From Crocinitomicaceae bacterium (lineage in GTDB: Bacteria > Bacteroidota > Bacteroidia > Flavobacteriales_D > Crocinitomicaceae): a stretch of 48,288 bases of DNA. Shown here one piece after another: positions 1,763 to 30,846 of the stretch. Under the pieces are notes generated by a model that worked only from the letters and a program-made list of their open reading frames with translations, had not been told where the DNA came from and made no database searches. The translations under genes were made by a program, and so were the position numbers. The stretch spans positions 1 through 48,288 of the forward strand of contig JAIOZF010000015.1 in assembly GCA_021740745.1 (NCBI GenBank), in the 5' to 3' direction. Position 1 is the first letter of the stretch. Each line of letters begins with the position of its first letter.

Positions 1763-4570
1763 TCACATCTCTAATGCCAAGTACTTAGCTGTATAGGAAA
1801 TATCCTTTGCTTTTTTAACAACTTGCTCTGGAGTTCCTTGCGCAATTATCATTCCGCCACCTTTCCCCCCTTCTGGACCGACATCAATTAAGTAATCTGC
1901 TACTTTGACAATGTCTAAATTGTGTTCGATCACCAAAACGGTATTCCCTTCATCTGCCAAGCGTTGCAACACTTCTAATAACATTCGAATATCTTCAAAA
2001 TGCAAACCAGTTGATGGTTCATCCAAAATATAAAATGTATTTCCTGTGCTTTTCTTCGCTAATTCAGATGCTAATTTTATCCGCTGAGCCTCGCCACCAG
2101 AAAGCGTTGTCGACGGTTGACCCAATTTAACATACCCAAGTCCAACACTTAACAACGTTGCTAAAGGACGATGAATCTTTGGTATAGCCTCAAAGAAAGG
2201 AGTTGCAGCTTCAATGGTCATCTCTAAGACATCTGAAATTGATTTACCTTTAAATCGAACTTCAAGGGTTTCTCGGTTATATCGTTTTCCATTACAGGTC
2301 TCGCATTCAACATAGACATCAGGAAGAAAATTCATTTCAATCACCTTCATTCCTCCTCCACTGCATGTTTCACAGCGTCCACCTGATACGTTGAAAGAAA
2401 AACGACCTGCTTTATACCCACGAATTTGTGCCTCAGGCATTCCGGCAAATAAGGAACGTATTTCATCGAATACCTTTGTATAGGTGGCAGGATTAGAACG
2501 CGGTGTTCTTCCGATTGGACTTTGATCAATTTCTATTACTTTATCCAAATGCTCTAAACCATCAATTGACTTATAAGGTAAGGGTTTGCGAACACCATTA
2601 TAAATATGTGCTAATAGAATTGGGTAAAGTGTCTGATTTATCAACGATGACTTACCGCTACCTGAAACACCTGTAATACAGCAAAATGTGCCCAATGGTA
2701 TTTTTAAATCTACATTCTTTAAATTATGTCCCGTTGCGCCTTTCAAGGTCAAAAACTTCCCATTGCCTTTCCGACGCTTTTGTGGAATTTCAATTTTTAA
2801 TTCTCCTGTTAAATATTTGGTCGTAAGTGAATCAACCGTATTCAATTCGGAAATTGGTGCGGCATTAATGATTTGTCCACCATGAATTCCAGCGCCTGGA
2901 CCAATATCCACCACAAAATCAGCAGCTTCAATCATTTCCTTATCGTGTTCAACGACAATAACCGAATTCCCTGCATCTCTCAAACGCTTCAATGAATTGA
3001 TCAAACGCGTATTATCGCGCTGATGTAAACCAATTGAAGGTTCATCCAACACATACAATACATTCATTAATTCTGAACCAATTTGAGTCGCCAATCGAAT
3101 ACGCTGTGCTTCTCCACCCGAAAGGGTTTTAGCGGAACGATGTAAAGTCAAATAATCCAAGCCCACTTCTAAAATAAAATTTAGGCGCGTATTGATTTCC
3201 TTCAAAATCTCTGTACCAATTATGAGCTGATCATTCGACAATTTAGCCTCCAACTGCTTAAACCATCCGCCCAATTCGATTAAATCCATTTGCGCTAAAT
3301 CGCCGATATGCTTGTTGTCTAATTTAAAGAAATGGGCTTCTTTTTTTAAGCGCGTTCCTTCGCAACTTGGACAAATTTTCTTATTCATGAAACTTAAGGC
3401 CCAACGTTGAATCGCTGCTGAACTTTCTTCTGAGTGACGAGAAACAAAATTGATAATTCCTTCAAACGTAACCGTTGTGCTTTTGTTAGAACGTTCGATG
3501 TCCTCATTCCCATAAAGCAAAACATTCATTACTTCTTCAGGAATCTCCTCTAATGGAGTAGAAATTGAATAGCCTTCTTGTGTTAAAAAAGTATCCAATT
3601 TATCGAAAATCCAAGTACGCTTATAATCACCCAAAGGCGCTAACCCACCTTTCTTAATCGATAATTTTGGGTTCGGAATTATCTTGGTAATATCTGCTTC
3701 AGAAACCTCTCCTAAACCACTGCATGTTGGACAAGCACCATAAGGTGAGTTGAAGGAAAACAAACTAGGCTCTGGTTCTGGGTATGAAATTCCAGATGTT
3801 GGGCACATCAATGAACGGCTGAAATGGCGTACATTCTCAGTTTCAAAATCCATCACCATCATAGCTTTGTTACCATGTTTCATGGAAGTTATAACTGAAT
3901 CGTAAATACGCTTCCGATCATTTGAATTTATTTGAAGTCGGTCAATTACAATATCTATATCGTGAATTTTATAGCGATCCAGCTTCATGCCGTGTTCGAT
4001 ATCCTTGAGTTGACCGTCGACACGCACTTTGGTGAAACCCATCTTTTGGATTTGATCAAACAATTCACGGTAGTGACCTTTTCGGCCTTTAATCTTTGGT
4101 GCTAAAAAAACAACTTTTTTGTCCTTGTACTGTTCAATAATTAAGTCAACAATTTGATCATCCGAGTATTTCACCATTTCCTCGCCCGTTTCATACGAAT
4201 AAGCTACACTAACACGTGCATATAGTAATCTAAGGAAATCATACACTTCTGTAATTGTCCCAACAGTTGAACGCGGAGAGCGAGAAACCGTTTTTTGCTC
4301 AATGGAAATTACTGGACTCAAACCGTCTATTTTATCTACATCTGGACGTTCTAATCCTCCTAAAAATTGGCGTGCATAAGCTGAAAACGTTTCAATGTAA
4401 CGGCGCTGACCCTCCGCGAAAATGGTATCAAAGGCGAGTGAGGATTTACCGCTTCCACTCAAGCCAGTAAATACAACCAACTTGTTCCGCGGAATCTTTA
4501 AATCAATGTTCTTTAGATTGTGCTCACGAGCACCGTAAATTTCAATATAACCGTCTTCGTTTTCTATCAT
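1763..4570 (-). CDS. uvrA: Excinuclease ABC subunit UvrA
   Basis: The damage-recognition ATPase of nucleotide excision repair, which works with UvrB and UvrC. At 935 residues it is full length. The first ABC module has Walker A GLSGSGKS (residues 36-43), the second GVSGSGKS (634-641); both have LSGGEAQRI signatures followed by LDEPSIGLH and LDEPSTGLH Walker B regions. The C-terminal zinc module (CETCSGGG ... CETCNGKR) is intact. The N-terminal zinc module reads CPTSGISY ... ACPTCSGLG, so the second cysteine of the first pair is serine; related Bacteroidota proteins, from memory, also vary here. The start overlaps the end of the upstream transglycosylase gene by 4 bp, suggesting coupling to it. 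Confidence 0.97.
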
Positions 4571-7171: not shown

Positions 7172-9556
7172 CTATTTTCTTTTAAAGAACTTTAAAAATC
7201 CCGTTTTCAGCGAGCGTTTATTCTTCTCTGATTCTTCATAATAACCATTTCCATAGCCATAACCATAGCCATAACCATAATTCGAACGTCGATGACTATT
7301 TATTCCATTCAAAATGACATTTAACTTTGTTAGTTGATTCATGTCGAATAACTCTTTTACACGATGTGCAAAGATACGTTTTGAAAAATGCGATTTGAAT
7401 ACATAAATTGGAATATCTGCCTCTGTCAAAATTTTAATACCATCAGAAACTAAACCAATTGGTGGATTGTCCATTATGATTACATCGAATTGTGTTTTTA
7501 ACTCTTCAATAATATCTTTAAAACGATCACTCAAAAGCAATTCAGACGGATTGGGTGGAATTGGTCCGGCAGTAATAAAGTATAAATTCTCTATTTTGGA
7601 TAGTTTAATGCAATCCTTTAATTCAAATTGTTTAGAAATTAGGCTGCTCATTCCTGCTTCATTTGAGACGCCCAATCCTAAATGGATTTTTGGTTTTCGC
7701 AAGTCCAAATCAAGTAAAATTGTTTTTTTACCTGACATCGCGATGATACCAGCTAAATTCAAAGAAACAAACGTTTTTCCTTCTCCAGAAATAGAGGAAG
7801 TCACTGCAATAGTTTTATAATCTCGATGAATATAACTCAGGTTTGTTCGAATCTTTCGCATCGACTCAGACAGCATTGATTTAGGTGCATCACCTACAAC
7901 AAGTTGAGAAAATTCCATACCTGAATTGTATAAAGGAACGCCACCTAAAATACTAGCTTTAGATGGTAAAAGTTTGTCTAAATCCTCAATTAAATTTATC
8001 TCGTTAAAGGTCAGATATTTAATCAGCATTACCCCTAATCCTAGGATAGTTCCGAACATGATAAAAGTGACATAAATCAATTTCCTATTTGGTGAAACTG
8101 GAGTGCCATTAACAACAGGTCTAGTTAAAATTCGACTATTAGAGGAGTATCCAGCGTCAGAAATGGCATATAATACCTTTTTTTCTGTCAATAGTGTAAA
8201 ATACTTTTCGTTTAAGTCTTGAATGTTTTTAAGACGACTAAATTCCATTTTCTTCTCTGGAAGTTCGAAAAATTCAGATTCATAACCTGTAATTTTGTCA
8301 CGAATTGTCTTACTATTTACATATAGACGTTCTAAAATCGTTGAAATACTTTTTCGGATACTGCCAAGTTTCGTTTGAATACGACCATTTAGAACTTTAA
8401 TTTCAGCATTTTCATCAGTTACTTGAAATAATAAATCTTCCTTTTTCTCTAACAAATCGTATAATGTTGAAATTTGGGTCGAAAGCGATTGCTCATAACT
8501 TTTTCCAAGCATTTCAGGCAATAACCGATATACTTCTAATCTATTTGGTTCATTCTTCAATTTAGAATTAACTTGATTAAGGGAACGAATCTCATCTTCC
8601 AACACAAATAATTGTTCTTGATATTTTGTGATGTTTGATGAAATGTCATCACCAGCTGTTAGAGGATCTGGGATATTTGACTTTCGTTGGTAAATCATTA
8701 AACTATCTTTCGAACTTTTCAATTCTCCCGATAATGAATCCAGCTGTTGATCTATGAAATTCAAAATGTTCTCAGAACCTTTTCGCTTATTTTCCTCATC
8801 ATAGTTGACAAATGCTTCTGCAATTGCCAATGTTAAATCATGACATAATTGTGGATTGTTTCCTCTAAAAGTTACTTGTATTGTTTTGGCTATCGGATCA
8901 ATAGGAACCACTTGAAGATTGGGCAAATAACGTGACGCAAATGATTGCACACTGTTAAAAGTAAAATACAACTCATTTTGATTTGCATCGGATAACAACT
9001 CATTCACATTTGAAGATTTTACGACTAAATCAAAATGGTTATTTTCAAAATGGTCATCAAGTTTACCTTTGATTTCGTTTCTTTTTCCATTGTGGGTATA
9101 GAACAAAGTGACCAAGTTACCATCATATGTCACATAAATTGGTACTCCTATCAAAGTAGAGTCTTTCAACTCAAAAGGCAACACATTAAATGTACTTGAA
9201 TTATACTTTTCTTCAATTAACACTTGTCCCTTTGAATACAAACTAACATTGTAATTGATACGTTGGATAGCCTTCTCAAACATTAATTGAGACCTCATTA
9301 ATTCAACCTCAGATGAAATATCATTTTGTTTGCTATTAATGTTTTCTATGTCGATAATATCTCTTGCGTTATCCTCATTGTCGATTTGGATAACCATTGT
9401 CGATTCAAAAGTGGGTTTTGTATATCTCAAATAGAAATATGACATTGAAAGGAAAAATGCAACGAATAAAACTGGCCACCACCAATAGCGTTTAACTATT
9501 ATTTGCAGTATGAGTGGATCGTAATCCTTGTTAATAATAAAACCCTTTTTTTCCAC
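7172..9556 (-). CDS. Wzz/Wzc-like exopolysaccharide BY-kinase
   Basis: A fused polysaccharide co-polymerase and bacterial tyrosine kinase of 794 residues. The order is: a first membrane segment (about residues 24-45), a long periplasmic Wzz-type region with coiled-coil stretches (about 250-440), a second membrane segment (about 490-512) and a cytoplasmic P-loop kinase domain. The kinase has Walker A GEGKT (residues 591-595) and Walker A' ILLDLDLRKPK. The C-terminal tail carries seven tyrosines in a GY repeat (residues 760-773), the expected autophosphorylation cluster, followed by a basic end. Such proteins control chain length and export together with the Wza-like lipoprotein, whose gene ends 2 bp upstream. 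No cognate tyrosine phosphatase gene is present nearby. Confidence 0.92.
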   Translation of the reverse strand: MEKKGFIINKDYDPLILQIIVKRYWWWPVLFVAFFLSMSYFYLRYTKPTFESTMVIQIDNEDNARDIIDIENINSKQNDISSEVELMRSQLMFEKAIQRINYNVSLYSKGQVLIEEKYNSSTFNVLPFELKDSTLIGVPIYVTYDGNLVTLFYTHNGKRNEIKGKLDDHFENNHFDLVVKSSNVNELLSDANQNELYFTFNSVQSFASRYLPNLQVVPIDPIAKTIQVTFRGNNPQLCHDLTLAIAEAFVNYDEENKRKGSENILNFIDQQLDSLSGELKSSKDSLMIYQRKSNIPDPLTAGDDISSNITKYQEQLFVLEDEIRSLNQVNSKLKNEPNRLEVYRLLPEMLGKSYEQSLSTQISTLYDLLEKKEDLLFQVTDENAEIKVLNGRIQTKLGSIRKSISTILERLYVNSKTIRDKITGYESEFFELPEKKMEFSRLKNIQDLNEKYFTLLTEKKVLYAISDAGYSSNSRILTRPVVNGTPVSPNRKLIYVTFIMFGTILGLGVMLIKYLTFNEINLIEDLDKLLPSKASILGGVPLYNSGMEFSQLVVGDAPKSMLSESMRKIRTNLSYIHRDYKTIAVTSSISGEGKTFVSLNLAGIIAMSGKKTILLDLDLRKPKIHLGLGVSNEAGMSSLISKQFELKDCIKLSKIENLYFITAGPIPPNPSELLLSDRFKDIIEELKTQFDVIIMDNPPIGLVSDGIKILTEADIPIYVFKSHFSKRIFAHRVKELFDMNQLTKLNVILNGINSHRRSNYGYGYGYGYGNGYYEESEKNKRSLKTGFLKFFKRK
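7251..7283 (-). repeat. 12-bp tandem repeat encoding the kinase Tyr tail
   Basis: On the coding strand a GGTTATGGCTAT unit repeats in frame between 7283 and 7251 and encodes alternating Gly-Tyr. Because the unit is four codons long, gain or loss of copies would change the number of tyrosines without shifting the frame. Confidence 0.75.
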
Positions 9557-23572: not shown

Positions 23573-24721
23573 ATGCAAAAGAACTGGTACGGAAAATCAA
23601 ATCGCCTAGGTATTTTAGGTGGTGGGCAATTGGGGCGCATGTTTATACAAGAAGCTATTAACTTGGATGTTGATGTGCATATTTTGGATCCAGATGAGAA
23701 CGCACCTTGTAAAGACATAGCGACAAGTTTTACAAAAGGCTCTTTGCTCGATTTTGATACCGTTTATAGCTTCGGTAAAGACAAGGATATTCTTACAGTA
23801 GAAATAGAAAATGTTAACACTGACGCATTAGAAAAATTAGAAAAAGAAGGAAAGAAAGTATTTCCCCAGCCTCATTTGCTCCGATTAGTACAAGATAAAG
23901 GTTTGCAGAAAGAATTTTACAAAGAGCATAATTTACCGACTGCTTCTTTTCATTTGATTGACAATAAAGCTGCAATTGATCCATTCATCCCAACCTTCCC
24001 TATTGTACAAAAGCTAAGAAAAGGCGGTTATGATGGAAAAGGAGTTCAAGTATTGAGAACGATTGAAAATTTAAATTTAGCTTTCGATGCTCCTTCTATT
24101 TTAGAAGAAATGGTTCCATTCAAAAAAGAACTTTCAGTAATAGTTGCAAGAAATGAAAACGGCGAAGTAGTTACCTTTCCTACCGTAGAATGTGAATTTA
24201 ATCCAGAAGCAAATCTAGTAGAGTTACTCTTTTCTCCCGCTTCGATCTCTGAAAACATTGAAGAAGAGGCGCAAAGTTTAGCAAAAGCTTTGATCGAAAA
24301 ATTAAATTTGGTTGGTATCTTGGCAGTTGAATTATTCTTGACAGAAGACGATAAATTGCTTATAAACGAAATTGCTCCGCGTCCGCACAATAGTGGTCAT
24401 CACACAATAGAGTGCAATGTGACCTCACAATTTGAACAGCATTTAAGAGCCATTTTAAATTTACCACTTGGCAATACCCGTGCTTTTCAAGCTGGAGCGA
24501 TGATAAATTTACTCGGTGCTAAAGGATATGAAGGAGCAGTTTATTATAAAGGACTTGAAGCAATTCTTGCGATACCAGGCGTTCAACCGCACATTTACGG
24601 AAAATCAATAACGAAACCATTTAGAAAAATGGGTCACATTACCATTTCTGGAGATTGTCTTGAAGATGTTATTCCGCTAGCAAAAAAAGTATTGTCAGAA
24701 ATTCAAGTGATTTCAAAATAG
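23573..24721 (+). CDS. purK: 5-(carboxyamino)imidazole ribonucleotide synthase
   Basis: An ATP-grasp enzyme of de novo purine synthesis: AIR + ATP + bicarbonate to N5-CAIR, used together with PurE. The 382-residue protein has the N-terminal LGILGGGQLGRMF, the ATP-binding PIVQKLRKGGYDGKGVQVL, LEEMVPFKKELSVIVARNENGE and the late metal/substrate motif INEIAPRPHNSGHHTIECNVTSQFEQHLRAI. It stands alone here, divergent from the salvage gene hpt; purE is not in the window. Confidence 0.95.
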   Translation: MQKNWYGKSNRLGILGGGQLGRMFIQEAINLDVDVHILDPDENAPCKDIATSFTKGSLLDFDTVYSFGKDKDILTVEIENVNTDALEKLEKEGKKVFPQPHLLRLVQDKGLQKEFYKEHNLPTASFHLIDNKAAIDPFIPTFPIVQKLRKGGYDGKGVQVLRTIENLNLAFDAPSILEEMVPFKKELSVIVARNENGEVVTFPTVECEFNPEANLVELLFSPASISENIEEEAQSLAKALIEKLNLVGILAVELFLTEDDKLLINEIAPRPHNSGHHTIECNVTSQFEQHLRAILNLPLGNTRAFQAGAMINLLGAKGYEGAVYYKGLEAILAIPGVQPHIYGKSITKPFRKMGHITISGDCLEDVIPLAKKVLSEIQVISK

Positions 24722-24827
24722 ATACTAAAATATTTTCCTAAATCTATTTTTAGAAACCTAACATGTTTGAAAGGTTAACTAAGGATGTTGAATCTTAAGA
24801 TCACATTACCCATTTGAATACTCATAG

Positions 24828-25092
24828 TCAATTGGTAGTTCTCGCAACTATAAACTAAACGAATTTTCTTTGATTTCAAGTGCATCAGTCAATCACGCCT
24901 CATCTGAAATGAAAGTTTGGACTGGAAAGGATCATGAAGTTCTCATTCGTTTCAACGGGAAGGATTTAAATGACCACAAGCTTATTCTTACATTATAATT
25001 ACTGCCAATGAAGCGTAAAAGTTCGTCATCCAAGATTAGTGGATCAGTTCGAACAAACTGATGATATTATACCTTTCACTGAAGTAATTTAA
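24828..25092 (+). pseudogene. possible decayed gene remnant, unrecognised
   Basis: One frame is open from 24828 (after a TAG at 24825) to a TAA at 24996-24998 and reads like real protein (... NHASSEMKVWTGKDHEVLI ...). A second short open segment in another frame, ending with a TAA at 25090-25092, includes RHPRLVDQFEQTDDIIPF. Neither has a convincing start with a leader. Together they look like the 3' end of a frameshifted gene, but I do not recognise the family and chance open frames cannot be excluded. Confidence 0.3.
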
Positions 25093-25106
25093 GAACTAAT
25101 TACTTC
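25081..25106. other. perfect 9-bp inverted repeat (hairpin)
   Basis: GAAGTAATT (25081-25089) and AATTACTTC (25098-25106) are exact reverse complements with an 8-base loop. A pyrimidine-rich stretch follows (TCTTCTT). It overlaps the end of the remnant and could be a weak terminator or an old one. Confidence 0.45.
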
Positions 25107-25139
25107 TCTTCTTAAAATTTTATTGATTTCATTTTCCAC

Positions 25140-25268
25140 GTTAAACCTAGCGCAGAGTGGGTTTTCCCAAATTTTCAAAATTATTATTTTGTCTGAAAAC
25201 ATTTTGTTTAACTTTTTTTTGTTTTTGTTAAACATAATTTGTTTAACTTTACAACTCAAACGTTAAAC
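25140..25268 (+). promoter_or_regulatory. array of GTTTAAC/GTTAAAC operator-like sites before the ECF sigma gene
   Basis: GTTTAAC occurs at 25206-25212 and 25241-25247; its reverse complement GTTAAAC occurs at 25140-25146, 25227-25233 and 25262-25268. The last four form two identical units, GTTTAAC-N14-GTTAAAC, offset by 35 bp, and both left arms lie in the same 13-mer TTTGTTTAACTTT (25203-25215, 25238-25250). The left arms overlap TAACTTT, one base short of a -7 box (TAACTTTA at 25244-25251), with a TTTG at 25218-25221. This looks like a repressor or activator site on the operon promoter. The cognate regulator is not in the window. Confidence 0.55.
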
Positions 25269-25277
25269 AAAAGTAAG

Positions 25278-25790
25278 ATGTCTACAATAGAATTCAATGA
25301 AGCGCTAATTGGTATGGAAAATAACCTCCATTCATTTGCAATGAGTTTTACGCGTAATAAAGAAGATGCGCAAGATTTAACGCAAGAAACAATGATGAAG
25401 GCAATCACCTACAGAAACTACTACACACCTCAAACAAACTTTAAGGCGTGGGTATTTACGATTATGAGAAATATCTTCATCAATCAATACAGAAGAAAAG
25501 TTAAGTCTGGTCAAATATTCGACCATTCAAAAGAGTTATATTTGTTAAATAATTCGGGTGATACTAAATTTTCACCGATGAATGAGATTTCTCAGAACGA
25601 GATTAACAAACAAATTGCTAATTTAGAGGATGATTATAAGACTCCTTTTATTTTACACTTTGAAGGATTCAAATACAAAGAGATAGCAGACCGTCTGAGT
25701 ATTCCTATCGGAACAGTGAAAAGTAGAATTTTTATTGCCCGTAAAAAACTTATGGATTGTCTGCCGGATTATAACTATTCAGTAAATTAA
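25278..25790 (+). CDS. ECF-type RNA polymerase sigma factor of the carotenoid operon
   Basis: A 170-residue sigma-70 family ECF factor. Region 2 is visible in LHSFAMSFTRNKEDAQDLTQETMMKAI and FKAWVFTIMRNIFINQYRR; region 4 in YKTPFILHFEGFKYKEIADRLSIPIGTVKSRIFIARKKL with its helix-turn-helix. I choose the ATG at 25278; an in-frame TTG at 25239 would put 13 extra residues across the operator-like repeats and is unlikely. No anti-sigma factor gene is adjacent. The stop overlaps the crtI ATG by one base (TAATG), so it is translationally coupled to carotenoid synthesis and probably directs transcription of this or related stress genes. Light or oxidative control is inferred from the neighbours. Confidence 0.9.
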   Translation: MSTIEFNEALIGMENNLHSFAMSFTRNKEDAQDLTQETMMKAITYRNYYTPQTNFKAWVFTIMRNIFINQYRRKVKSGQIFDHSKELYLLNNSGDTKFSPMNEISQNEINKQIANLEDDYKTPFILHFEGFKYKEIADRLSIPIGTVKSRIFIARKKLMDCLPDYNYSVN

Positions 25791-27268
25791 TGAGTAAAAA
25801 AGTCACCATATTGGGAGCTGGAATATCAGGTCTTTCTTCGGCTAGTTTTTTAGCTAAAGCCGGATACGATGTGACCATTTTAGAAAAAAATTCATCTATC
25901 GGTGGACGAGCGCGTCAATTTGAAGTGGATGGTTTTGTTTTCGATATGGGACCTAGCTGGTACTGGATGCCTGATATTTTTGAACGGTTCTATAATCAGT
26001 TTGGACATACTACGAATGACTTTTATGATTTAATACGACTTGATCCTTCTTATCAAGTATTTTGGGAGGATAAAACACATACGAATATTCCCGCGAATGC
26101 TGAAGAGCTTTACGCATGGTTTGAGAAAATGGAACCGGGAAGTGCTGAAAAACTGAAATCATTTTTAAAGGACGCAGAATACAAATATTCGGTAGGAATG
26201 CAGGATTTAGTTTTCAAACCTGGATTGAAACTAACCGAATTCGCAGACATGCGTGTCATTAAAGGTTTGTTTAAAATGCATTTGGTGACTTCATTTTCCA
26301 AATATATCAGACGTTATTTTAAGAATGAGAAGATACTATCTCTTCTTGAATTCCCTGTATTATTTCTTGGCGCCACACCAGAAGAAACGCCTGCACTTTA
26401 TTCATTAATGAATTATGCTGATATTTCTCTTGGCACCTGGTATCCAATGGGCGGTATGTTTAAATTTGTTGAGGCCTTCGAAAAAATTGCACTTGAACAA
26501 GGTGTGAAAATCGTTACAAACCAAGAAGTAATTGGTTTTGAATACAATGGAAAGAACATTACACATGCTGTTACCAAAGACCAAAAATGGGAAACAGATA
26601 TTTTGATTTCTGGCGCTGACTATCAGCACACTGATAAAAAATTACTTAAAAGCAATTCAAATTACACAGATAAATACTGGGAAAGTCGAACTATTGCGCC
26701 TTCTAGTCTTCTGTTTTACCTTGGAATTGATAAGAAAATTGATGGTCTTCAGCACCACAATTTATTCTTTGACGAATCGTTCGCAAAACACGCTCAAGAA
26801 ATTTACAAAGATCCTAAATGGCCAAGCGCTCCCTTATTTTATACATGCGTACCTTCTAAAACTGATCCAACTGTCGCTCCAGAAGGAAAAGAAAATGTAT
26901 TTTTACTTATTCCAATTGCCCCAGACTTAAAGGATGATTCGGAAGAAACAAGGGATATTTACTTCAATATGTTAATGGATCGTTTAGAAGAACACTGCGG
27001 CACAACTATTCGTGAACACATAATTTATAAGAAAAGTTATTGTATCACGGATTTTAAAAATGATTATCATGCCTTCAAAGGAAATGCTTATGGTTTGGCA
27101 AATACGCTTCGTCAAACAGCTTTGCTTAAGCCTTCTTTGATGAATAAAAAATTGAACAACATGTTCTATACTGGTCAGTTAACAGTGCCAGGTCCGGGCG
27201 TCCCACCTTCGATTATTTCGGGAGAAGTAGTAGCAAAAGAAGTCATGAAACGATTTAAATTAAATTAA
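25790..27268 (+). CDS. crtI: Phytoene desaturase (CrtI family)
   Basis: A 492-residue FAD-dependent desaturase/isomerase that turns phytoene into neurosporene or lycopene. The N-terminal dinucleotide-binding fold is ILGAGISGLSSASFLAKAGYDVTILEKN (Gly9, Gly11, Gly14), followed by GGRARQFEVDGFVFDMGPSWYWMPD. The C-terminal carotenoid-dehydrogenase signature is MFYTGQLTVPGPGVPPSIISGEVVA. Paralogues such as CrtD or CrtNc exist in Bacteroidota, but its place directly before crtB favours CrtI. No lycopene cyclase or hydroxylase gene follows. Confidence 0.93.
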   Translation: MSKKVTILGAGISGLSSASFLAKAGYDVTILEKNSSIGGRARQFEVDGFVFDMGPSWYWMPDIFERFYNQFGHTTNDFYDLIRLDPSYQVFWEDKTHTNIPANAEELYAWFEKMEPGSAEKLKSFLKDAEYKYSVGMQDLVFKPGLKLTEFADMRVIKGLFKMHLVTSFSKYIRRYFKNEKILSLLEFPVLFLGATPEETPALYSLMNYADISLGTWYPMGGMFKFVEAFEKIALEQGVKIVTNQEVIGFEYNGKNITHAVTKDQKWETDILISGADYQHTDKKLLKSNSNYTDKYWESRTIAPSSLLFYLGIDKKIDGLQHHNLFFDESFAKHAQEIYKDPKWPSAPLFYTCVPSKTDPTVAPEGKENVFLLIPIAPDLKDDSEETRDIYFNMLMDRLEEHCGTTIREHIIYKKSYCITDFKNDYHAFKGNAYGLANTLRQTALLKPSLMNKKLNNMFYTGQLTVPGPGVPPSIISGEVVAKEVMKRFKLN

Positions 27269-27316: not shown

Positions 27317-28153
27317 ATGAAACAACTATTTGACGATATATCACATGAAATGAGCGAACTTACCACCAAAAGGTACAGTACTTCTTTCTCGTTAGGTATT
27401 TCATTTTTGCATAAATCATTGCATAAACCTATCTATGCGATTTATGGATTCGTAAGATTTGCAGACGAAATTGTTGATTCATTTCACAACTTTCCAAAAG
27501 CAGATTTACTCGAAGATTTCAAGCGCCAAACGTATCTTGCTATTGAACAAGGCGTTTCACTGAATCCTATACTTAATAGTTTTCAATGGGCTGTTAATAA
27601 GTATTCTATTCCATTAGATCTAATCGAAACTTTTCTTCAAAGCATGGAGATGGATTTAGATAAAACGAATTATGATCCTGCAAAATACGAACAATATATT
27701 TTAGGTTCCGCTGAAGTTGTAGGTCTAATGTGTCTTAAGATTTTCGTTAAGGGAAATGATGAGGAATACGAGCGATTAAAGCCTGCAGCAATGAAACTTG
27801 GATCTGCTTTCCAGAAAATCAATTTCCTTCGTGATTTGAAAGCTGACTACCACGAACTAGGCAGAACTTATTTCCCAGGTATAGATTTGAATGAATTCAA
27901 TTCAACTGTTAAAAATGAGATCGAAGCCGATATTGAAAAAGATTTCAAAGCGGGATATGAAGGTATCAAGCAGCTACCAAAAAATTCGCGATTTGGCGTT
28001 TATATGGCTTATGTTTATTACTATAAATTGTTTTCAAAGATAAAAACAACATCAGCGAATACAATATTGAACGAGCGCATCCGTATTCCTAATAATAAAA
28101 AATACCGTCTTTTTGTCACTTCCTATGTTCGACACAACCTTAATTTAATTTAG
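27317..28153 (+). CDS. crtB: Phytoene synthase
   Basis: A squalene/phytoene synthase family enzyme of 278 residues that condenses two GGPP to phytoene. Both aspartate-rich motifs are present: D50-E-I-V-D54 (FADEIVD) and D173-L-K-A-D177 (NFLRDLKAD), which bind the diphosphates through magnesium. YSTSFSLGISFL near the start and GLMCLKIF are also family marks. It follows crtI and is directly followed by idi, whose GTG comes right after the crtB stop codon. Confidence 0.94.
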   Translation: MKQLFDDISHEMSELTTKRYSTSFSLGISFLHKSLHKPIYAIYGFVRFADEIVDSFHNFPKADLLEDFKRQTYLAIEQGVSLNPILNSFQWAVNKYSIPLDLIETFLQSMEMDLDKTNYDPAKYEQYILGSAEVVGLMCLKIFVKGNDEEYERLKPAAMKLGSAFQKINFLRDLKADYHELGRTYFPGIDLNEFNSTVKNEIEADIEKDFKAGYEGIKQLPKNSRFGVYMAYVYYYKLFSKIKTTSANTILNERIRIPNNKKYRLFVTSYVRHNLNLI

Positions 28154-28717
28154 GTGGAAACGAATAATTTTTCTGAAGTTATTCTCGTCGATGTTCAGGA
28201 TAACGAAATTGGTAAAATGGAAAAACTCGAAGCGCATGTTAAAGGTGAACTTCATAGAGCTTTTTCAGTTTTCATTTTCAATAATCAGAATGAACTCTTG
28301 CTTCAAAGAAGAGCTTTTGGTAAATACCATTCAGAAGGATTATGGACAAATACGTGTTGCAGTCATCCATTACCTGGAGAAACTGTATTGCAAGCGGCAA
28401 ACCGTCGGTTGATGGAAGAAATGGAACTAGAATGTCAACTTGAAAATTCTTTTTCATTTATTTACAAAGCAGCACTAGAGAATAATTTAATTGAATACGA
28501 ATTAGACCATGTTATAATTGGTTTTAGTGATGAAACACCTCACATTAACCCTTCCGAAGCAATCGCCTTTAAATGGTTAAGTTTGGAGACTATTGTTGAA
28601 GACATTAAAAAACATCCAGAACATTACACCGCTTGGTTCAAAATAATTTTGACAGATCATTTATCCATTTTAACATCCCATCTATCACATGAAAGTTTGT
28701 CGAAGAATAACATTTAA
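28154..28717 (+). CDS. idi: Isopentenyl-diphosphate delta-isomerase (type I)
   Basis: A Nudix-fold enzyme of 187 residues that interconverts IPP and DMAPP, the entry units for carotenoids and other isoprenoids. The catalytic cysteine is Cys68 in TNTCCSHP and the catalytic glutamate Glu116 in EYELDHV; LHRAFSVFIFNNQNELLLQRR and LWTNTCC are typical. The start is GTG at 28154, immediately after the crtB stop; homologues begin with a similar EVILVDxxDNEIG stretch, so later ATGs are too short. The 3' end overlaps the next gene by 29 bp, and the last residues (ILTSHLSHESLSKNNI) may be an extension. Confidence 0.93.
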   Translation: METNNFSEVILVDVQDNEIGKMEKLEAHVKGELHRAFSVFIFNNQNELLLQRRAFGKYHSEGLWTNTCCSHPLPGETVLQAANRRLMEEMELECQLENSFSFIYKAALENNLIEYELDHVIIGFSDETPHINPSEAIAFKWLSLETIVEDIKKHPEHYTAWFKIILTDHLSILTSHLSHESLSKNNI

Positions 28718-29093
28718 TTCAGCTCACCGTCTTTTTAATTCTCATTGGTCTGATGAAAAGAACCTTGAAGTATTTGGTAAATGCAGCAACCCAAATTTCC
28801 ATGGACATAATTATGTTTTAGAAACATGGATTGACGGACCAATTGATCAAGAAACTGGTTATGTAATTGACTTGAAAAAGTTGAAAGATATTCTGAACGA
28901 CGAAATTTCAGAGCGTTTTGATCACCGTAATTTAAACTTAGATTGTCCCGAATTTGCTGAGTTGAAACCTTCTGCTGAGAACATAGCTGTAGTCATTTGG
29001 AACATTCTACGTTCTAAATTAGAAACTAAATTTAGCTTGAGCGTTAAATTATGGGAAACCGAAAACAACGTAGTTGAATACAACGGTATATGA
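28689..29093 (+). CDS. 6-pyruvoyl-tetrahydropterin synthase / QueD family
   Basis: A 134-residue PTPS/6-carboxytetrahydropterin synthase family protein. The zinc-binding histidines are His13 (NSAHRL), His38 and His40 (NFHGHNY); the probable catalytic cysteine is Cys32 (GKCSNPN). LKPSAENIAVVIW and LWETENN complete the family pattern. Members act on 7,8-dihydroneopterin triphosphate, leading to queuosine precursor, biopterin or folate-type pterins. No other queuosine gene is near; instead it overlaps idi by 29 bp and the photolyase gene by 4 bp, so a pterin supply for photolyase or light response is a reasonable inference, unproven. Confidence 0.87.
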   Translation: MKVCRRITFNSAHRLFNSHWSDEKNLEVFGKCSNPNFHGHNYVLETWIDGPIDQETGYVIDLKKLKDILNDEISERFDHRNLNLDCPEFAELKPSAENIAVVIWNILRSKLETKFSLSVKLWETENNVVEYNGI

Positions 29094-30388
29094 CAACTCT
29101 ATTTTGGCACAGAAGAGACCTTAGAATTGAAGACAATGCTGGACTTTACAAAGCACTGAAAACAGAAGGATCGGTTCAACCAATATTTATTTTTGACAAA
29201 ACAATTTTAGATAAACTTCCGAAGAATGATCAGCGCATTTTGTTTATTCACAATGAGATCAAGCTATTAAAGGACGCCTACAGGGAATTTGGCGCAGATT
29301 TAATGGTCTTTTACGGTGAACCGTTATCTGTTTTCAAGGAGTTGATTACTAAACAAGATGTCAAAAAGGTAATTATCAATCGTGATTACGAACCTTATGC
29401 CTTAGAGCGTGATAAATCAATTTTTGAATTTCTCCAAGGCAATAACATCGAATTTTCTGGTTCAAAAGATCATGTTATTTTCGAGAAAAATGAAGTTCTT
29501 AAATTAGATGGTACACCTTATACTGTTTTCACACCGTATTCTCGCAAGTGGAAAGAAAAACTGAGTGATTATTTCCTTTCCTCTTATCCAACAGAAAAAT
29601 ATACACATAATCTGTCAAAAGCTAGTCCTACGCCTATACCTAGTTTAGATGAAATGGGCTTCGAAACTGAACAAATAGTTGATTTTCCAAGTAAAACTTT
29701 ACCGACAAAAATTATTTCCACCTATAATGAAACCAGAGATATACCCTCTGTTTTAGGTACTAGTCGTCTGAGTTTACACTTGCGTTTTGGAACCATCAGT
29801 GTTCGTGCAATTGCTCGTGAAGCAAGTAAACTGAACGAAACTTATTTGAATGAACTCATTTGGCGTGACTTCTATCAAATGATCATTTTTCATTTCCCAC
29901 ATTCAGCACGAAATTCATTTAAGAAACAATACGATTTGATTGAATGGGAACACAACGAAGTTCACTTTAAAGCATGGTGCGAGGGCAAAACTGGCTATCC
30001 ACTTGTTGATGCCGGAATGCGCGAATTAAATGCGACAGGCTTCATGCATAATCGAGTGCGAATGGTTGTTGCAAGTTTCTTAACGAAACATTTACTTATT
30101 GATTGGCGATTAGGCGAAACCTATTTTGCCGAAAAATTGCTTGATTTTGAACTAGCAAGTAATACCGGTGGTTGGCAATGGGCAGCCGGTTGTGGATGCG
30201 ATGCAGCTCCATATTTCAGGGTGTTTAACCCCACAAGTCAACAAGAGAAATTTGACAAACAATTCACCTATATTAAAAAATGGGTTCCCGAATTTGGTAC
30301 AGAAAGTTATATTTCGCCGATAATTGATCACAAATTTGCGCGAGAACGCGTATTAGAACGATACAAACAAGCACTAAAACCAGCATAA
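29090..30388 (+). CDS. phrB: Deoxyribodipyrimidine photolyase (cryptochrome/photolyase family, class I)
   Basis: A 432-residue flavoprotein that repairs UV-made pyrimidine dimers using blue light. The N-terminal Rossmann-like antenna domain begins LFWHRRDLRIEDNAGL. The C-terminal FAD domain has ELIWRDFYQMIIFHFP, GYPLVDAGMRELNATGFMHNRVRM and GGWQWAAGCGCDAAPYFRVFNP, the last typical of class I CPD photolyases. The antenna pigment is likely a folate/pterin, which makes the adjoining PTPS gene notable. The start ATG overlaps the PTPS stop (ATGA). A cryptochrome role cannot be excluded by sequence alone. Confidence 0.93.
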   Translation: MTTLFWHRRDLRIEDNAGLYKALKTEGSVQPIFIFDKTILDKLPKNDQRILFIHNEIKLLKDAYREFGADLMVFYGEPLSVFKELITKQDVKKVIINRDYEPYALERDKSIFEFLQGNNIEFSGSKDHVIFEKNEVLKLDGTPYTVFTPYSRKWKEKLSDYFLSSYPTEKYTHNLSKASPTPIPSLDEMGFETEQIVDFPSKTLPTKIISTYNETRDIPSVLGTSRLSLHLRFGTISVRAIAREASKLNETYLNELIWRDFYQMIIFHFPHSARNSFKKQYDLIEWEHNEVHFKAWCEGKTGYPLVDAGMRELNATGFMHNRVRMVVASFLTKHLLIDWRLGETYFAEKLLDFELASNTGGWQWAAGCGCDAAPYFRVFNPTSQQEKFDKQFTYIKKWVPEFGTESYISPIIDHKFARERVLERYKQALKPA

Positions 30389-30846
30389 TGTCAAAAAAAA
30401 TAGGAGATCTTTGCCCGAAATTCAGCTTGTATGATCAAGAAGGCGAATTAATTAACATCGAAGATCGTATTGGAACAAAAAATTGTGTCATCTATTTTTA
30501 TCCAAAAGACGATACTCCGGGTTGCACAAAAGAAGCATGCACTTTTCAAAGTAATCTGCACTCTTTCGACGATTTAAATTGTGAGGTCTTCGGAATTTCA
30601 ACCGACAGCGTTGCTTCACACAAAGAATTTGCTAATAAATATCAGCTGAAATTTAAATTACTTTCTGATCCAAATAAAGCGGTTAGAAATGCTTTTGGTG
30701 TTCCTGGAAATCTATTCGGATTAATCCCTGGAAGAGTTACCTATATTATTGACAAAAAGGGTGTGATTCGCGGTATTTATAACTCTCAAACTGATCCAGT
30801 TGGACATATCAATAAATCAATTGAGACACTTAAAACGTTAGATTAA
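30388..30846 (+). CDS. bcp: Thioredoxin-dependent peroxiredoxin, Bcp/PrxQ type
   Basis: A 152-residue peroxiredoxin that reduces hydrogen and lipid peroxides in the cytoplasm. The peroxidatic cysteine is Cys46 in DDTPGCTKEAC with the resolving cysteine five residues later (Cys51), as in PrxQ/Bcp. FYPKDDTPGCT, FGISTDSVASHKEFANKY and LLSDPNKAV are family marks. Its ATG overlaps the photolyase stop by one base, placing it in the carotenoid/photolyase operon, in line with defence against photo-oxidative stress. Confidence 0.94.
   Translation: MSKKIGDLCPKFSLYDQEGELINIEDRIGTKNCVIYFYPKDDTPGCTKEACTFQSNLHSFDDLNCEVFGISTDSVASHKEFANKYQLKFKLLSDPNKAVRNAFGVPGNLFGLIPGRVTYIIDKKGVIRGIYNSQTDPVGHINKSIETLKTLD

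Follow-up and report, generated by a model that had tools for sequence, protein, structure and literature searches.

Upstream of a carotenoid (crt) operon in a member of the Crocinitomicaceae, two palindromic units lie directly before the gene for an ECF-type sigma factor, and we consider it likely that they are the operator of an unlinked CarH/LitR-type MerR protein (encoded at C40:16838-17707) that would repress the operon in the dark and release it in the light. With less confidence, we also lean towards a broader reading in which one CarH-type B12 photoreceptor in the class Bacteroidia would run, via inverted TTTGTTTAAC-N14-GTTAAACAAA, a light regulon of rhodopsin phototrophy, carotenoids, photolyase, pterin/folate and isoprenoid supply, and secreted fasciclin proteins.

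A double palindrome before the carotenoid operon

The source genome (3.03 Mb in 137 contigs) carries the operon on contig C92, which is the window, i.e., the whole stretch of 48,288 nucleotides analysed here. The operon lies on the plus strand and begins with the ECF-type sigma factor gene (25278-25790; Pfam Sigma70_r2, r4_2 and Sigma70_ECF), followed by a phytoene desaturase-type amine oxidoreductase gene that we call crtI from its context (25790-27268; Amino_oxidase, NAD_binding_8), the phytoene synthase gene crtB (27317-28153; SQS_PSY), a NUDIX protein gene whose context makes it probably the isopentenyl-diphosphate isomerase gene idi (28154-28717; NUDIX), a gene of the 6-pyruvoyl tetrahydropterin synthase family (PTPS; 28689-29093; Pfam PTPS), one of the DNA photolyase/cryptochrome family (29090-30388; FAD_binding_7, DNA_photolyase) and an AhpC/TSA peroxiredoxin gene (ahpC, 30388-30846; AhpC-TSA) that, judging from the coordinates, is probably the last overlapping gene of the operon. 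The photolyase and PTPS genes of this genome are thus carried inside the crt operon.

The initial annotation had claimed five exact copies of one 7-mer ahead of the sigma gene, and all five are where it placed them. Four are the core arms of two exact GTTTAAC-N14-GTTAAAC units, which are the sole exact ones within the window and have the equal N14 spacing and the 35 bp from start to start that had been claimed: the first (25206-25233) is made of 25206-25212 on the plus and 25227-25233 on the minus strand, the second (25241-25268) of 25241-25247 on the plus and 25262-25268 on the minus strand. The 13-mer said to be common to both left arms was also found (TTTGTTTAACTTT), and the array does end just before the sigma gene, with a gap of 9 bp between position 25268 and the ATG at 25278. 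The corresponding candidate operator units extend over 25203-25236 (TTTGTTTAAC-N14-GTTAAACATA; E 2.2e-4 with the trained model R1 described below) and 25238-25271 (TTTGTTTAAC-N14-GTTAAACAAA; R1 E 3.8e-6). The fifth copy, a GTTAAAC arm at 25140-25146 on the minus strand, is isolated: it has no partner at 21 bp and is missing from the other genus rows that we compared. We therefore rejected it as a member of the array and judged it to lie outside the operator, so that of the five-copy array that had been proposed, a feature of four arms in two units at 25203-25271 stands. A lone arm is also present in L053 (G045), ~125 bp before its sigma gene and in a different sequence context.

The idea that the copies exceed chance holds for their clustering and not for the 7-mer itself, which is unenriched across the window (9 observed vs 9.4 expected). 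Across 5000 spacers simulated with an order-2 Markov model of this spacer (24721-25278; 29.9% G+C vs 36.0% in the window), a count of 3 per 129 bp was never exceeded and no N14 unit arose. When we scanned the own genome for the exact unit, the two units of the window were the only matches (reversed control 1). With model R1, for which 150 of 5056 first-look candidates were scored in this genome, the only strong sites were likewise the units of the crt operon, followed by a next-best place at E 0.067. Within the scope of these scored candidates, the crt operon alone stands out as a target in the own genome, and the motif is not scattered at random as the initial annotation had considered possible.

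The spacer between a purK-like gene and the array (24722-25139, ~420 bp) has stops in every frame of a six-frame translation and nothing in that translation that is recognisable by eye. Because a merR gene occupies the equivalent position in many other genera, this spacer may be the scar of a departed merR.

Conservation of the palindrome and overlap with the probable promoter

A search of 60 genomes (own included, and many of them incomplete) with the sigma protein found an ortholog, defined by E below 1e-35, in 44 of them; the upstream region of L051 (G020), where the contig ends, was left out. The palindrome is present in all 43 remaining distinct upstream regions, with a best unit of at least 22.8 bits. 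Since the matrix had been trained on these same 43 regions, we repeated the count with plain words: the arms of exact TGTTTA...TAAACA pairs are separated by N18 in 57 cases, by N19 in 14 and by N29 in one, and all others are N52-54 apart, a distance that spans two units. The motif is thus kept upstream of orthologous crt operons in 43/43 testable sigma-led cases. The consensus of the unit is TTTGTTTAAC-N14-GTTAAACAAA, with about equally conserved arms around a two-fold axis, a symmetry that is partly built in because the sites were picked with a symmetric matrix. Two units are present in many of the 43 regions. Their starts are 34 or 35 bp apart in G047 and the window's genus and 42, 44, 52, 53, 55 or 64 bp apart elsewhere, with outliers at 111 and 133 and some weak second units. 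We set aside a fixed phase between the units, given this variation from 42 to 133 beyond the genus and G047. In most genomes, a scan that allowed three mismatches to the extended consensus yielded fewer forward matches than the reversed control or about as many; unlike this loose scan, the trained model could tell signal and background apart.

For the housekeeping -7 box of flavobacteria, PMC3587595 gives, in its available text, the consensus TAnnTTTG. A probable -7 box of the operon, TAACTTTA at 25244-25251 on the plus strand, is one letter off this consensus and begins in the left arm of unit 2, in agreement with the overlap with -7-like sequence noted earlier; a candidate -33 element (TTG at 25219-25221, plus strand) lies ahead of it with a spacer of 22. 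Exact TAnnTTTG between -60 and -20 is found in 19/24 genus-level upstream regions, always starting four bases into the TGTTTA of unit 2 and 14 times as TAACTTTG; the window is one of the five regions of the genus where the exact box is absent from this interval. In other families, the position of the box varies: it lies within a unit, on the edge of one or as much as ~20 bp ahead; no TAnnTTTG box was found in L068 and L070, and the sole box of L063 is at -95. Since the operator has no fixed place between -33 and -7, classic MerR activation is less likely, and a polymerase-blocking repressor is a better fit than a MerR activator for an operator that in most rows overlaps the box or borders on it at a variable position.

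A CarH-like MerR protein encoded elsewhere in the genome

The initial annotation had pointed to MerR/LitR/CarH-type light regulators and to a protein acting from outside the window, and both suggestions agree with what the genome contains. Two of its proteins match MerR_1 at E up to 0.001, and one of them (C40:16838-17707, 290 aa) also has a B12-binding_2 and a weak B12-binding domain. Its MerR_1 match (Pfam, E 6.7e-14) includes a RxWERRY-like HTH recognition helix (TIRIWEKRYGF). The best PDB sequence matches are 3whp and 5c8d, CarH of T. thermophilus (E 1e-18), and CarH is also the top fold match (5c8e, E 6e-16, probability 1.00, TMq about 0.62) of its AlphaFold model (pLDDT 90.5), with a TMt of up to 0.87 for cobalamin-domain chains. 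The protein has the Wx9EH feature of the four-helix bundle (WLVGSINTAQEH), which in the CarH/LitR family caps the adenosyl group, and the GG of the B12 motif (D/ExHx2G/P...SxT/V...GG). In an alignment of 54 homologs of at least 230 aa, to which a few genomes contributed two, Wx9EH and ExH (with the axial His) are all kept in 47, own included; the exceptions are L073, L095, L096, L097, L137, L145 and L149. Among genus members, Tyr replaces the Trp of Wx9EH in L095 (G040), L096 (G016) and L097 (G005), a natural change at the residue described as distinguishing CarH from CarA. The axial His of the B12 motif is kept in 53/54 homologs, and the G/P position of this motif is occupied by S in 29 (the own protein among them), by G in 24 and by P in one. 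With S at this position, B12 binding by the own protein is plausible, not assured. Of the two Pfam B12 domains, the second is a weak match in the own protein and did not reach E 0.001 in any of four other MerR homologs scanned. Judged by sequence, predicted fold and cofactor residues, the C40 protein thus appears CarH/LitR-like.

A homolog of this protein is encoded in 56/60 genomes, and in 21/60 the gene order is MerR/B12-domain gene, palindrome, then sigma gene or crtI. The sigma gene follows in 17 of these (in G043 with a merR fragment only on the contig), and crtI, with no sigma gene between, in the other four (G037, G039, G050 and G052). At five loci (L057, L069, L076, L140, L307), the palindrome precedes merR itself. 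In four genomes (G031, G053, G055, G059), merR adjoins crtI, yet no unit scored above 18 bits. Both the merR and the sigma gene are present in 25 genomes of the window's genus, on separate contigs in 24 and 17 kb apart on one contig in G004, and this unlinked position of merR explains why no regulator was found within the window; contig ends intervene in G020. The MerR proteins of the genus members G004 (C15:4506), G021 (C32:9) and G023 (C111:16592) are only 38-44% identical to the own one, vs 55-65% for most others, and the gene in G023 adjoins crtB with the sigma gene on another contig. These three look like replacements by transfer in which the palindromes were retained.

Motif and regulator also occur together. 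Model R1 is sequence-only and was built from 37 of 56 crt-upstream sites; the scan of the 60 genomes used strict filters, with 117 candidates scored in nearly all genomes. An R1 site at E up to 0.05 was found in 53/60 genomes, namely in 53/56 with MerR vs 0/4 without (Fisher 7e-5), a contrast that rests on four MerR-less genomes (G028, G029, G035, G049) and on a threshold at which ~3/60 chance matches are expected. MerR is present yet no R1 site was found at E up to 0.05 in G020, G031 and G059, and the weakest positives (G019, G046, G053, G055, G058) have nothing better than E 0.013. MerR and an R1 site are present without a crtB match in G012 and G056, and G035 has crtB with both MerR and the motif absent; the assemblies of G012 (85%), G020 (71%) and G035 (78%) are incomplete. 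G022 is also without a crtB match, but its operon, with the sigma gene near, runs into a contig end; crtB may be missing merely from the assembly, and we therefore excluded G022 from the crtB-less list.

Genes beyond the carotenoid operon

R1 was trained solely on crt sites, so its other places are independent of the training. The matches listed (down to E about 0.0023) comprise 92 R1 places, 58 at crt/merR and 34 elsewhere. Among the latter, 15 precede fasciclin-domain proteins (14 Pfam-scanned; L205 of G001 counted by length and likeness to L204), seven precede rhodopsins, two folE or PTPS-folE, two DUF4397 proteins and one DXS. Four are near photolyase, short-chain dehydrogenase or DUF2805 genes, two of them at a distance from the start codon of ~420 bp (L206) and ~640 bp (L071 at 8460); one lies between SpoIIE and a PF04240 carotenoid protein, and the remaining two of the 34 are at a GEVED-domain protein and in a PNPase/sigma-70 gap. 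G041 (L113) has a separate unit upstream of photolyase. Beyond the orthologous operons, related genomes therefore have the motif before photolyase, carotenoid, rhodopsin and merR genes, as the initial annotation had envisaged in part. All 22 units above 17 bits in twenty stretches lie outside retained ATG frames (at least 60 aa).

Apart from crt, the motif is found most often at genes for fasciclin-domain proteins. The gap from unit to start codon is 3-10 bp, as at crt, in L198, L199, L203, L204, L205, L211, L212 and L214, and 40-73 bp in L200, L202 and L217; the proteins of L198, L199, L203, L204, L212, L214 and L217 have a Por secretion tail. The gap between the PNPase gene and a sigma-70 gene (regions 1.2 to 4) in L138 (G052:C49) contains a double palindrome at 3843-3924, a sign that G052 may control a sigma factor of non-ECF type in the same way. 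L071 (G037) has the motif at 3752, at an operon of CIA30, an unknown gene, TspO and photolyase, and at 8460, in the stretch before SDR-flavin reductase genes; these sites are close to the merR-crt operon and form a compact light island. DUF2805 genes with the motif upstream stand beside a dehydrogenase or photolyase-like gene in L206 (G023) and L210 (G037), and DUF2805 may be a light-response protein.

In a sample of 148 genomes across the phylum (own included), R1 sites at E up to 0.005 occur in 21, all of the window's class. In families of other orders, the motif lies between merR and crtI (L307, L308), before sigma genes (L306, L310, L311, L314-L316), before fasciclin proteins (L298, L302, L304, L319, L322) or near a dehydrogenase with photolyase beyond (L305, L312); at L299, L301, L303, L309, L320 and L323, there was no match to the query proteins.

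Rhodopsin genes

The own genome has no rhodopsin above the cut-off. Sixteen of the 60 genomes do, one of them without upstream DNA, and a unit of at least 20 bits lies within 300 bp upstream of the gene in 8/15. The units of G052 and G059 are weaker (13.4 and 7.4 bits) and exceed every one of 300 shuffles; in G042, the two arms are exact and spaced by N15, with an N14 matrix score below zero. No unit was found in the 300 bp upstream of the rhodopsins of G005, G013, G031 and G055.

We compiled a second set, taken from named assemblies, from the best 80 of 581 rhodopsin loci, close relatives of one rhodopsin and nearly all from Bacteroidota MAGs; 79 of these 80 have at least 150 bp upstream, and N14 or N15 was allowed. 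Sites of at least 15 bits are present in 28/79 and of at least 20 bits in 23/79, and 15 bits were ever reached in 2/79 regions with 50 shuffles per region and in 0/1160 background 300-bp windows from the same loci. Fisher's test of rhodopsin upstream regions against this background gives 2e-36, which overstates independence because the loci are mutually related. L218, L219 and L296 repeat genomes of the first set (25/76 without them), and L221 and L234 have an identical site sequence. Many sites among these best 80 of 581 loci are 102-107 bp from the start codon. The other 51/79 regions are without a site of this kind, and the control is thus not a universal one.

As far as the available text of PMC3587595 goes, the housekeeping consensus precedes the proteorhodopsin gene in one Dokdonia strain and is absent in two, and that genome study asked for further work. 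Open-licence PMC papers that mention both proteorhodopsin and CarH are, by their titles, reviews or off-topic, and the available text of PMC12627116, one of them, does not link the two; a literal search of open-licence PMC papers for the arm letters gave no lead among the matches listed.

Comparison with known light regulators

CarH, the AdoCbl photoreceptor-repressor of Thermus thermophilus and Bacillus megaterium, targets a carotenoid promoter in Thermus. The putative system described here resembles it in the MerR DNA-binding domain, the Wx9EH four-helix bundle and the axial His of the Rossmann domain, and also in the TnnACA half-site core (here TAAACA/TGTTTA), the promoter-overlapping operator and the carotenoid promoter as target; it differs in the S for G/P in the B12 motif of the own protein. 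The operators also differ: those of CarH, as described in the accessible part of PMC9304148, consist of 11-bp direct repeats (nnnnTnnACAn), three or four of them in tandem, whereas here one or two inverted TGTTTA-N18-TAAACA units are found, with arms N18/N19 apart and no third conserved TnnACA in the inner columns 11-24 of the unit. With inverted arms 18 bp apart, unlike the tandem repeats of CarH, the DNA-bound geometry would have to differ. As read from these sites, the putative operator has a new layout of inverted TnnACA half-sites 18 bp apart instead of 11-bp direct repeats.

Inverted-repeat sites are shared with class II LitR proteins (PplR1 of Pseudomonas putida, PmlR2 of P. mendocina), for which the text available from PMC9758184 gives T(G/A)TACA-N12-TGTA(C/T)A. 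The spacing differs, with N12 there and here 57 pairs at N18, 14 at N19 and none at N12. PmlR2 has two sites at one promoter, of which the first covers -35 and the other is located between start site and ATG; the second B12 domain is missing from class II LitR proteins, and PmlR2 works with a LOV partner (PMC9758184). The cofactor His is in contrast kept here. The light-induced photolyase, folE and nearby short-chain dehydrogenase genes of class II LitR match motif targets here, and rhodopsin, DXS and fasciclin proteins go beyond the targets that the same portion of PMC9758184 lists. Among myxobacterial CarA/CarH proteins, CarA of Myxococcus xanthus is described in PMC9304148 as two dimers that bind cooperatively at the crt promoter in dark repression, which resembles our proposal; according to the same text, it is without the Trp of Wx9EH and is released by the antirepressor CarS. 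Within the same phylum (Bacteroidota), Chryseobacterium lacus YLOS41 has a light-induced crt cluster: in the part of PMC7064467 available, the crt genes are up in light, carotenoid is absent in the dark, and the light-regulated mechanism is called an unknown pattern.

Proposed mechanism and alternatives

The reading that we prefer draws on the motif and its conservation, the near-fixed spacing, the link to merR and the co-occurrence with it, the fold and cofactor residues shared with CarH, and the overlap with the -7-like box. Because the operator overlaps this box and the protein is related to CarH, we infer dark repression with release by light. In the dark, the AdoCbl-bound C40 protein would bind both palindromes with one dimer per unit, probably with cooperation between the two dimers, cover the -7 box and start region, and keep the sigma-crtI-crtB-idi-PTPS-photolyase-ahpC operon off. 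Light would break the cobalamin-carbon bond and make the oligomer disassemble, after which housekeeping RNA polymerase could transcribe the operon. Binding by the C40 protein, dimers and their cooperation, repression over activation, B12 dependence and the response to light are all predictions of this model.

An unlikely variant, which we nevertheless take seriously, has the same CarH/LitR-type protein on the palindrome without B12 light sensing, with a partner that supplies a light or singlet-oxygen signal as for CarA or class II LitR, or has it activate in the fashion of MerR. Pointing this way are the S for G/P in the B12 motif of 29/54 homologs, the second Pfam B12 domain that is weak in the own protein and below threshold in four homologs, and the inverted TGTACA-N12-TGTACA of class II LitR, which is nearer to our unit than the direct repeats of CarH (PMC9758184, as far as available). 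Against a loss of B12 sensing, Wx9EH and the ExH axial His are found together in 47/54 homologs, and its Trp is the very residue that the accessible text of PMC9304148 describes as absent from CarA; against activation, the place of the -7-like box with respect to the units differs from family to family.

It is improbable that a different dimeric regulator owns the palindrome and that MerR is tied to crt for another reason. The four genomes with merR beside crtI and no strong motif would suit such a regulator; the motif in the merR-crt gap, sometimes before merR itself, its presence in 0/4 MerR-less genomes, and a half-site core TnnACA that is that of CarH (PMC9304148, in the part available) speak for MerR instead.

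The initial annotation had also offered that the ECF factor recognises its own promoter, with the repeats as its -35/-10 elements. We regard this as very improbable, in spite of units directly before the sigma gene in 43/43 testable sigma-led cases and of arms that contain AAC, a common ECF -35 core. The motif persists before crtI with the sigma gene absent (G037, G039, G050, G052) and precedes unrelated genes (rhodopsin, fasciclin, folE and photolyase), its arms are two-fold symmetric where a promoter would be asymmetric (with the caveat that a symmetric matrix picked the sites), and it overlaps a housekeeping-type -7 box in most of the genus. An origin of the cluster by chance, in a spacer rich in A+T, has next to no probability and is refuted by conservation, since the chance frequency of the 7-mer alone in the window stands against 0/5000 simulated spacers, 43/43 regions and strict spacing.

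Significance

If binding of the C40 protein and its homologs to these palindromes holds, the CarH family, which is in use as an optogenetic tool, would have another DNA-binding layout. A short and strict operator together with a named regulator would make light regulons readable from genomes. If the broader reading is also true, a CarH-type regulon would supply the missing control for many rhodopsin genes of the Bacteroidia.
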